Assembly (NCBI RefSeq): GCF_014854695.1
Contig: NZ_CP027557.1
Span: forward strand, 3,782,001-3,846,000
Origin: Rhodococcus rhodochrous
GTDB lineage: Bacteria; Actinomycetota; Actinomycetes; Mycobacteriales; Mycobacteriaceae
Direction of reading: 5' to 3'
DNA length: 64,000 nt
This document shows, one piece after another, positions 8,499 to 10,141 of the stretch. The position numbers were made by a program, and so were the translations under genes. Position 1 is the stretch's first letter; each line of letters starts with the position of its first letter. The notes beneath the pieces were generated by a model. It saw nothing but the letters and a program-made list of their open reading frames with translations. It was not told the DNA's origin and made no database searches.

Positions 8499-8753
8499 AT
8501 GCGCTTCGTGTCCTCCTAGGACGTTTCTGTAGGTCCCCAATCGACCGCACTTTGTGGGTGCGATCGCCGTCGGCTCGCGAGCAGCGAGCATGGCCGTGTC
8601 CACGTCCTGGACCGCGGCCAAACATGACAAGCGTACTGCTATTGCCGATGACCGCAAAGCGCCTCGTCCCACCCCCACGCCCTACCGACCGGTAACTTTC
8701 CTGCTGGTCAGGGATGTTCAGAGGGTGCATAGGACCCTGCGACGGAGAGTCGC

Positions 8754-8759
8754 TAGACT
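8754..8759 (+). promoter_or_regulatory. -10 element of the metX leader transcript
   Basis: TAGACT fits an actinobacterial -10 box. Transcription would begin about 7 bases later, immediately before the closing stem of the SAM-IV aptamer at 8769. No convincing -35 box is visible. Confidence 0.55.
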
Positions 8760-8764
8760 GCCGG

Positions 8765-8868
8765 GAAAGTCATGAGTGCCAGCGTCAAGCCCCGGCTTGC
8801 TGGCCGGCAACCCTCCGACCGGGGTGGGGTGCTCCGGGTGATGACACGGTCGGTGGAACCCCACCGAC
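8765..8868 (+). ncRNA. SAM-IV riboswitch upstream of metX
   Basis: The segment matches the actinobacterial SAM-IV aptamer. The core begins GTCATGAGTGCCAGCGTCAA, continues with GCTGGCCGGCAACCCTCC, and ends GGTGGGGTGCTCCGGG then TGATGAC. The outer stem pairs GTCAT (8769-8773) with ATGAC (8841-8845). A following hairpin (GTCGGTGG at 8849-8856 with CCACCGAC at 8861-8868) corresponds to the extra 3' stem of this class. SAM-IV RNAs bind S-adenosylmethionine and turn down methionine synthesis genes. The downstream gene is metX, as expected. Assignment is by remembered consensus and should be solid. Confidence 0.92.
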
Positions 8869-8887
8869 AAGCCTGTTGTCGGGAGGA
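8849..8887 (+). promoter_or_regulatory. Putative expression platform of the SAM-IV switch
   Basis: Two hairpins compete here. GTCGGTGG/CCACCGAC (8849-8868) shares CCGAC at 8864-8868 with a second hairpin, CCGACAA (8864-8870) pairing with TTGTCGG (8876-8882). The second one ends inside the strong ribosome site GGGAGGA (8881-8887) of the leader ORF that starts at 8893. The two folds are mutually exclusive, so ligand binding could change access to this site. The direction of the switch is inference. Confidence 0.55.
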
Positions 8888-8892
8888 CTGAG

Positions 8893-8958
8893 ATGATGAT
8901 GTGCTGTCGCACGCAAGCCACGATCACACCTCCCATCACCGCCGGAAGGACACGATGA
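8893..8958 (+). CDS. Met/Cys-rich leader peptide of the metX operon
   Basis: A 21-codon ORF directly after the riboswitch, with a strong GGGAGGA site six bases upstream. It opens with three ATG codons, then TGC and TGT, so the peptide begins MMMCCRTQ, and it ends GRTR before TGA. Runs of Met and Cys codons in front of a methionine-biosynthesis gene suggest an attenuator that senses charging of tRNA-Cys or tRNA-Met; short poly-Cys leader ORFs with this role are known from mycobacteria. Its stop overlaps the ATG of the next small ORF (ATGA at 8955-8958). Which of the three ATGs is used is unclear. The reading frame is certain; the regulatory role is inference. Confidence 0.65.
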
Positions 8959-9017
8959 CCGACATCCGCAGCCGGCGCTGCCAGCCCACCGCGAGCCTCG
9001 AGGCGGTCATCTCTTGA
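8955..9017 (+). CDS. Second small ORF linking the leader to metX
   Basis: A 20-codon ORF beginning [10 protein letters not shown] and ending EAVIS. Its ATG overlaps the leader-peptide stop (ATGA), and its TGA overlaps the TTG start of metX (TTGA), so translation could pass from leader to this ORF to metX by termination-reinitiation. It has no ribosome site of its own beyond AAGGA inside the leader. In M. tuberculosis metC lies at this place, so the ORF could be the trimmed ends of a deleted metY/metC, or simply a coupling device. I recognise no homologue. Confidence 0.45.
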
Positions 9018-10141
9018 CGGCGGGCACCGAGCGGCGTCGCGTCGAACTGCCCCCGTCGGACGGACGCCTCGACACCATCGACATCGGCGATCTCGCGCTC
9101 GAGAGCGGCGAGACGCTGCCGAACGTCACGATCGCCGTGCAGAGGTGGGGCGAACTGTCCCCCGCCCGCGACAACGTGGTGCTCGTCGAACACGCCCTCA
9201 CCGGCGACTCGCACGTCACCGGCCCCGCCGGACCGGACCATCCGTCCCCCGGTTGGTGGTCGGGCATGGTCGGCCCGGGCGCTCCGATCGACACCGATCG
9301 CTGGTGCGTGGTCTCGACGAACATCCTCGGCGGGTGCCGCGGCTCCACCGGCCCCGGCAGCACCGCACCCGACGGCAAGGCCTGGGGATCCCGCTTTCCG
9401 CTGATCACCGTGCGCGACCAGGTGGCGGCCGAGGTTGCGCTGCTCGACAGGCTCGGCATCGACGTCCTCGCCGCCGTGACCGGCGGGTCGATGGGCGGCA
9501 TGCGCACCCTGGAGTGGATCATCGCGTACCCGGAGCGGGTGCGGGCGTCGCTCGTCCTCGCCACCGGTGCCCGCGCGACCGCCGACCAGATCGGCACCCA
9601 GAGCGCGCAGATGGCTGCCATCTCGGCCGACCCCGACTGGCAGGGCGGCGACTACTACGGCACGGGGCGGCGTCCCGAAGCCGGGCTCGCCATCGCCCGG
9701 ACCATCGCGCACCTCACCTACCGGACCGAACTCGAACTCGACACGCGCTTCGGGAATCTCCCCCAGGACGACGAGGACCCGTGGCGCGGCGGCCGGTACG
9801 CCGTGCAGAGCTATCTCGAGCACCAGGCGCGCAAGCTCGTCGCGCGCTTCGATCCCGGTACCTATGTGGTGTTGTCCGACGTGATGAACCGGCACGACGT
9901 CGGGCGCGGACGCGGCGGCGTCGAGGCCGCACTCGCGTCCACCCCGGTCCCGACGATCGTCGCCGGCGTCGACTCCGACCGGCTGTATCCGCTGCGCCTG
10001 CAGCAGGAGATCGCGGATCTGCTCCCGGGATCGGGCGACCTGCGTGTGCTCGTCTCCCGCGACGGGCACGACGGATTCCTCACCGAGGCCGACGAGGTCG
10101 CGAAGCTCCTCGTCGAACTGATGAAGCTCGCCGAGGGCTAG
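9014..10141 (+). CDS. metX: Homoserine O-acetyltransferase
   Basis: A 375-residue alpha/beta-hydrolase-fold enzyme that acetylates homoserine with acetyl-CoA, committing it to methionine synthesis. Family motifs are [34 protein letters not shown], the nucleophile elbow [13 protein letters not shown] (Ser near residue 157), and the acid and base of the triad in VDSDRLYP and GHDGFL near the C-terminus. The TTG at 9014 is favoured because it overlaps the upstream small ORF stop and precedes the conserved region at normal spacing. The partner gene metC/metY is not adjacent. The stop overlaps the stop of the convergent DUF3017 gene. Expression is probably under SAM-IV control. Confidence 0.95.

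Follow-up and report, generated by a model that had tools for sequence, protein, structure and literature searches.

What does a short open reading frame (ORF) that opens with methionine and cysteine codons do between a SAM-IV riboswitch and the methionine biosynthesis gene metX? The question is raised by a Rhodococcus rhodochrous locus within the window, i.e., the whole 64-kb stretch of DNA (64,000 nucleotides) analyzed here. A preliminary description proposed that the riboswitch and the upstream ORF (uORF) together provide two-input control of methionine synthesis, sensing the SAM level and the charging of both tRNA-Cys and tRNA-Met.

Organization of the metX leader

The elements of the window leader are as follows.

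8754..8759, + strand: TAGACT, a -10-like hexamer, recognized by eye
8768..8879, + strand: SAM-IV riboswitch aptamer (RF00634, 99.6 bits)
8881..8886, + strand: GGGAGG (SD1), Shine-Dalgarno (SD) sequence of the uORF, from sequence
8893..8958, + strand: uORF, 21 codons, from sequence, translation, and relatives
8902-8904 (TGC) and 8905-8907 (TGT), + strand: Cys codons of the uORF, from sequence
8911..8945, + strand: C-rich, G-poor, rut-like stretch (C 0.49, G 0.17) inside the extended uORF
8929..8934, + strand: CCTCCC, an anti-SD able to pair with SD1 (pairing probabilities, RNAalifold consensus, and pair counts with a slide control)
8946..8950, + strand: AAGGA, SD sequence of ORF2, from sequence and conserved in the genus alignment
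8955..9017, + strand: ORF2, 20 codons, a metY fossil cistron by homology to the intact metY of locus L020
9014..10141, + strand: metX, homoserine O-acetyltransferase, TTG start (NF047917, 601.7 bits)

The aptamer matches the Rfam model over its full length (model positions 1-116; gathering score, 38; E value, 4.7e-17) and is the sole Rfam match at gathering scores within the window. By this covariance-model match it belongs to the SAM-IV class, for which SAM binding and lowered expression are predicted. Transcription would start at about 8765, judging from the -10-like TAGACT, which also precedes the aptamer in L020, L023-L025, L029, L030, and L036; a consensus promoter scan of the window leader found no promoter. 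The uORF starts 13 nt past the end of the RF00634 match with the codons ATG ATG ATG TGC TGT CGC. This order of aptamer, SD, and 21-codon ORF with three ATG codons followed by TGC TGT agrees with the preliminary description. The latter also placed the uORF in front of metX; metX does lie downstream, at 9014, but not directly so: the mini-ORF at 8955-9017, which that description lacked, intervenes. The uORF stop overlaps the ORF2 start (ATGA), and ORF2 in turn ends within the TTG start codon of metX (TTGA), an overlap likewise absent from it.

The metX product exceeds the cut-off of the MetX_acetyl_MTB family (475 bits), and its closest named relative is that of Rhodococcus gordoniae (94% over MetX) among the matches listed, from which records of the same genome were possibly left out. 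No SD is found 4 to 9 nt before metX, and a GAGG (9000-9003) lies 10 nt upstream. The divergent upstream neighbor encodes an NADP-dependent isocitrate dehydrogenase; the convergent downstream neighbors are a 94-amino-acid ORF without a family and folD. No intrinsic terminator (hairpin plus T run), as a Rho-independent attenuator would have, was found at positions 8500-9100.

SD1 is able to pair with CCTCCC inside the uORF. Within the window's genus, this pairing has a probability of at least 0.99 in 11 of 14 metY-less loci (shuffled sequences, 0.64 to 0.77) and also appears in the RNAalifold consensus. In an alignment of 15 sequences, 88% of cells pair, compared with 52 to 77% in slid controls, and 7 cells are changed on both sides. 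Covariation support is modest, since part of the 126/216 covariation seen by RNAalifold arises because GGGAGG is shifted by one base. Across 76 loci compared with shuffled controls, SD1 was not sequestered above expectation (P = 0.61) and SD2 was slightly less paired than the shuffles (P = 0.013). General SD sequestration is thus not supported; the SD1 hairpin is exceptional solely within the window's genus.

Cysteine codons and C-rich gaps behind SAM-IV aptamers

We examined 158 metX loci, comprising the genus loci, 80 named loci (the best 80 of 361), and 60 picked from another list. A regular expression located the aptamer in 140 of these, yielding 118 unique metY/metX-type SAM-IV leaders; the other 18 loci do not enter the uORF counts. 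An Rfam check of 18 loci picked among the located aptamers returned SAM-IV in all 18. Because the uORF rule demands an SD with a GAGG core, uORFs with weaker SDs (e.g., L177) are scored as none, and because many loci are related, the counts below are not independent.

An SD-led uORF was found in 92 of the 118 leaders, and 89 of these 92 carry Cys within the first 12 codons, often as MCCCRR*. Other typical peptides are MCCCCRR, MSCCRR, MCCCTG, MCRTCR, MCSCHE, MCCSR, and MRVVVMSCRA. At least two Cys residues in codons 2 to 7 occur in 69 of 92 uORFs but in 0 of 93 GGAGG-ATG sites found elsewhere in the same DNA (the full count of such sites was 94, one of which is itself a uORF). A single Cys says little, because at least one occurs in 31 of the 94 other SD-ATG sites (versus 83 of 92 uORFs). 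The Cys codons are mostly TGT (TGT:TGC, 188:20, versus 78:241 in metX; Fisher P = 1.7e-54, a descriptive value that ignores kinship). The pairing of aptamer and Cys-codon leader is thus real and conserved, with Cys kept while its neighbors change (MCCCRR, MCRTCR, MCSCHE, MCRDC). Comparison of leaders across relatives, a check that the preliminary description had suggested, recovered conserved Cys codons with synonymous TGT/TGC variation; the Met codons are not conserved.

Outside the window's genus, a Cys uORF was present in 16 of the 24 family genera with a located aptamer. Seven of the 24 had no uORF by the rule at all located loci, and the remaining genus had a Cys-less uORF in one of two loci. 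A GAGG-led uORF is missing from 26 of the 118 leaders, including L124 (M. hubeiense); SAM-IV therefore works without a uORF. In genus code g29, L260 encodes MMCIHQAHSRRFVCRR* before metY, at about 71 to 122 nt past the aptamer core, and L223 has no uORF by the rule. In L099, L126, L173, and L178, which belong to lineages apart from the window clade, the end of the uORF and the start of metY share 4 nt; the resemblance to the window clade looks convergent.

SAM-IV was found in all 18 genomes of the window's genus, each with one met-type copy (L002 in the window; L020-L036 elsewhere), and all 18 met-type copies have an SD-led uORF. At least one TGT Cys codon is kept in 17 of the 18 uORFs (L034 has none). 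The double Cys emphasized in the preliminary description is less general, with a contiguous pair in 6 of the 18 loci, and in the window it is most readily explained by a recent change of AGC to TGC next to the TGT that is conserved. With a single Cys codon conserved across the genus, its members may sense cysteine weakly or in an altered way. The uORF of L031 contains a tandem repeat of an SCRAG unit with three TGT codons. The pattern of the window's leader form was found in 5 of 41 genomes searched, its own included, all within the genus. The other main SAM-IV copy of the genus genomes precedes a 437-amino-acid protein (in the window's genome), and in none of the 15 located copies of this kind does a short Cys uORF follow an SD. 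The remaining 3 of the 18 escaped location, and for 4 of the 15 the rule yielded no start behind an SD.

The gap following the uORF, defined as extending from its stop to 15 nt before the next start, has a characteristic composition. The next start was located in 85 of the 92 uORF loci (the other 7 were left out), and 68 of the 85 had a gap of the required length (at least 15 nt). In these gaps, C makes up 46% and G 21%, and C exceeds G in all 68. Among 101 other SD starts used as controls, C and G make up 33% and 34%, respectively, and C exceeds G in 40. C exceeds G in 6 of 17 metY leaders without a uORF and in 4 of 11 other SAM-IV leaders. The C-rich bubble thus goes with the uORF and not with SAM-IV. 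An excess of C over G is the makeup expected of a Rho loading site. The restriction of such gaps to uORF leaders suggests a Rho-dependent, tnaC-like attenuator in the ancestral-type leaders, a model favored by the position of the Cys codons in the short uORFs, a few codons from the stop and thus near enough for a stalled ribosome to shield the beginning of the bubble. The window counterpart (8911-8945) lies inside the uORF and hence would be translated; a stall at the Cys codons could therefore expose it and might lower, not raise, metX expression.

Several other readings of the uORF can be weighed against these data. The pattern GGAGG-N4-12-ATG-N0-6-TGYTGY occurs 18 times on both strands of the 6.09-Mb genome, window included (10 times when reversed), and chance matches do arise; one of the other own-genome matches, all of which were translated, sits within a long ORF (L241, MSCCRS...). 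Yet our arithmetic from the genome count gives about 2 in 10,000 per given 150 nt, and both position and Cys are conserved across genera, so that a chance ORF is hardly credible. Joint sensing of Met-tRNA and Cys-tRNA, as proposed in the preliminary description, could draw on the three ATG codons of the window. However, Met occurs just once in codons 1 to 8 of 72 of the 92 uORFs, the ATG triplet is present in 5 of the 18 genus loci, and any additional ATGs look like alternative initiation codons served by one SD; sensing through Met codons is rejected, and the joint version is very improbable. Scarcely better is the idea that the UGU run acts as an RNA element, unstructured or protein binding, and not as codons. 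The strong preference for TGT over TGC would fit it, but the Cys codons are in frame with an SD-led start, their spacing varies (MCRTCR, MRCRHC, MFSHRLCCSRR), and TGC occurs 20 times. Less easily set aside, although still unlikely, is an action of the uORF via its nascent peptide or via termination (Cys-Arg or Arg-stop, or the Streptomyces-like Arg-Met-Arg-stop) and not via Cys-tRNA supply. Arg is the last residue in 54 of 92 uORFs, Cys is followed by Arg, His, or Lys in 52 of 92, and six SAM-IV leaders of another family encode MSKRMR* or MSQRMR* with no Cys. Against it, peptides lacking Arg keep Cys (MCCCG, MCSDC, MCCSPP, MSCCCG), and Cys runs reach up to four.

The tiny conserved uORF of these six leaders (L247, L249, L250, L258, L261, and L271) reads GTGAGCAAGCGAATGCGNTAG (MSKRMR*, once MSQRMR*), sits about 80 to 96 nt past the aptamer core, and precedes another gene. 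By our reading, these leaders belong to one other actinobacterial family, which is Streptomyces-like. The motif CGAATG recurs in L243, L245, L262, and L265 (MCIRRMCCR*, MSCQRMPRR*, MNHHRMRR*, and MCRCRMTG...). uORFs behind SAM-IV may be general. Two back-to-back SAM-IV aptamers on opposite strands, about 100 nt apart, were also seen (G247:C16:1956-2073 [-] and 2175-2291 [+]).

A metY remnant between the uORF and metX

The origin of ORF2 is indicated by L020, which has an intact metY and the same leader as L083 (R. yananensis). The end of metY and the start of metX in L020 read TTTCGAGGCGGTCGCGTCTTGACGGCG, and the window counterpart reads CTCGAGGCGGTCATCTCTTGACGGCG; the start regions of the L020 metY and the window ORF2 match as AAGGACAC-(C)-GATGACCGACA. 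On this homology, ORF2 is a metY remnant of 20 codons. An intact metY is present elsewhere in the window's genome (C1:4978685-4979935, L157; NF005872, 848.5 bits); SAM-IV has no match at that gene, and the metY-metX operon is split in this genome. Within the genus, the ORF2 start region shows no variation in AGGA or in the TGA after it across 15 aligned loci. In the window, L023-L025, L029-L031, L035, and L036, the early stop of the uORF is gone and the frame runs on to a 4-nt overlap with the fossil; in L033 and L034, uORF and fossil are fused. Nocardia fossils are 32 to 108 codons long, with pieces of metY still visible (e.g., RLAVGIEDIPADLRAGFAAATT in L133).

The phase between fossil and metX was assessed in 44 loci chosen from the metY-less set plus L213 (L139 and L148 share their first 170 nt with another row). 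L113, L130, L137, and L153, which carry metY with a variant motif, had been taken out of that set. The fossil start was fixed first, without regard to its end, and then read to the stop, which avoids a built-in phase. Forty-two metY-less loci were testable, since L100 lacks a start for the fossil and L213 covers too short a part of metX. In 40 of the 42, the fossil ends in NTGA at the metX start; the phases are distributed 40:2:0 over 20 different lengths. From the phase kept at 20 lengths, we infer selection for a ribosome relay through the fossil. None of the 40 coupled loci has an SD 4 to 9 nt before metX; 13, including the window by sequence, have an SD-like tetramer 10 to 12 nt before it, and 27 have none. 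One exception, L144, has a fossil out of phase and an SD-like match at metX; the other, L032, shows no overlap, and its metX record seems to contain an indel. On a quick metX tree of 73 rows, 7 changes of metY state are required (no fewer than 5 if starred branches alone are considered), and we read these changes as losses.

In L100 (N. paucivorans), the fossil is gone, and a Cys uORF (MCCPLSVSK*) stops 4 nt before the GTG start of metX; this Cys leader may be coupled directly to metX. It lies at about 48 to 85 nt past the aptamer core.

Proposed control of the operon and relation to known systems

The reading that we favor, by a small margin of belief, is that SAM-IV gates a Cys-codon uORF as the first cistron of the methionine operon, with a Rho attenuator as the ancestral form and the fossil relay as a derived form. 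The riboswitch would control ribosome access to the uORF. The ancestral form would consist of a uORF such as MCCCRR*, a C-rich gap, and metY-metX, and would act as a putative Rho-dependent attenuator like tnaC. When cysteine is plentiful, the ribosome would complete the short uORF and depart, the rut-like gap would be exposed, and Rho would stop transcription. Under a shortage of Cys-tRNA, a ribosome paused on the Cys codons would shield the beginning of the gap, and transcription would continue. Bound SAM would deny ribosomes access to SD1, favoring the OFF state. In the derived window form, metY has been reduced to the 20-codon fossil, and the uORF, without its early stop, extends to the fossil start; ribosomes would be relayed from the uORF through the fossil to metX via the two stop/start overlaps. 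metX has no well-placed SD of its own, the GAGG lying 10 nt upstream, and the opening of SD1, held in its hairpin with CCTCCC, would govern the whole chain. For the broader statement, we put the chances as even: the SAM-IV leaders of Rhodococcus, Nocardia, and their kin would be Rho-gated attenuators responding to SAM and, through MCCC uORFs, to Cys-tRNA, and after metY loss an in-phase fossil would repeatedly have been kept solely as a relay to metX.

For the window clade itself, a substantial but lesser possibility is that the uORF serves as a SAM-gated translational relay only, with SD1 open or closed, and that cysteine sensing has been lost. Conservation of one Cys codon in the genus, its loss in L034, the extension of the uORF over ORF2 or its fusion with ORF2 (L033/L034), and the restriction of the SD1 hairpin to this genus all speak for such a loss; the TGT kept in 17 of 18 loci, the three TGT codons of the L031 repeat, and the second Cys codon gained by the window group speak against it. 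It is also conceivable, although improbable, that the window metX is initiated mainly from its own weakly placed GAGG and that ORF2 is a neutral leftover. A GAGG at a spacing of 10 precedes metX in several genus loci, and the window metX may have some independent initiation from it; the 13 coupled loci with an SD-like tetramer are in line with such starts. In the other 27, however, the overlap is kept with no SD-like match, and the phase is kept while fossil lengths vary widely.

The elements of the favored scheme are of known kinds. Tandems of a ppGpp riboswitch and a T-box likewise join a ligand aptamer to a sensor of tRNA charge but have no leader peptide, and in tnaC a ribosome masks a Rho site, as in our model, without an aptamer. 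Comparisons with the systems that follow are confined to the available portions of the papers cited. Mycobacterial polycysteine short ORFs share with the window uORF (TGC TGT) contiguous Cys codons in a short upstream ORF, and a cysteine-dependent ribosome speed has been proposed to set downstream expression (PMC9031893); those ORFs are leaderless, whereas the window uORF has an SD, stands behind a 112-nt SAM-IV aptamer, and precedes methionine genes, so that initiation is not leaderless. In Actinobacteria, the leader peptides with Cys codons proposed for cys operons and cbs (Seliverstov 2005, PMC1262725) also have a Cys run near the stop and no conserved terminator hairpin, with Rho suggested; they differ in serving other genes and, in the portion available, in having no riboswitch, and for methionine operons that portion reports no conserved RNA structure. 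The Mycobacterium tuberculosis metE and ppe2 leaders combine a B12 riboswitch with a uORF and an AUGA overlap, and at ppe2 uORF-dependent, AUGA-coupled translation by termination-reinitiation supports expression (PMC11260477); the ligand differs, and the portion available does not describe the uORFs as amino acid sensors. The Mbox-rv1805A-pe20 leader resembles ours in its translational platform with Rho and in a uORF that is the first regulated ORF, unlike ours in its Mg2+ aptamer and in a conserved uORF for which the accessible text gives no regulatory codon run (PMC12810186). uORFC-8-2 before cysS in Rhodobacterales has two tandem Cys codons, but UGC dominates, an intrinsic terminator is present, and no ligand aptamer appears in the part available (PMC8632094).

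No description of SAM-IV joined with a Cys leader was found among the literature matches listed; the preliminary description likewise knew of no such described system. As judged by titles and abstract openings among the matches listed, papers on coupling were found but none on metY-like gene fossils as coupling relays. As far as seen, the combination of aptamer and Cys uORF and the proposed fossil relay are new. In R. qingshengii IGTS8, MetY rises by log2 2.9 to 3.1 on dibenzothiophene versus sulfate, a change in which SAM and Cys effects are inseparable and which may or may not concern the MetY copy behind SAM-IV (PMC8557817).

If the proposed scheme is true, one leader computes with two signals of sulfur metabolism, SAM as the end product and cysteine as the sulfur amino acid, in 17 genera of this family within our samples (16 and the window's own), including biodesulfurizing and oleaginous rhodococci. 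A natural series, from MCCC-gap-metY through uORFs overlapping a fossil and uORFs fused to it to a uORF directly before metX (N. paucivorans), offers living relatives in which the contributions of Cys codons, Rho, and coupling can be told apart. As for the metY fossils, they would then be a clear case of translational coupling guarding a decaying gene remnant against loss of phase.
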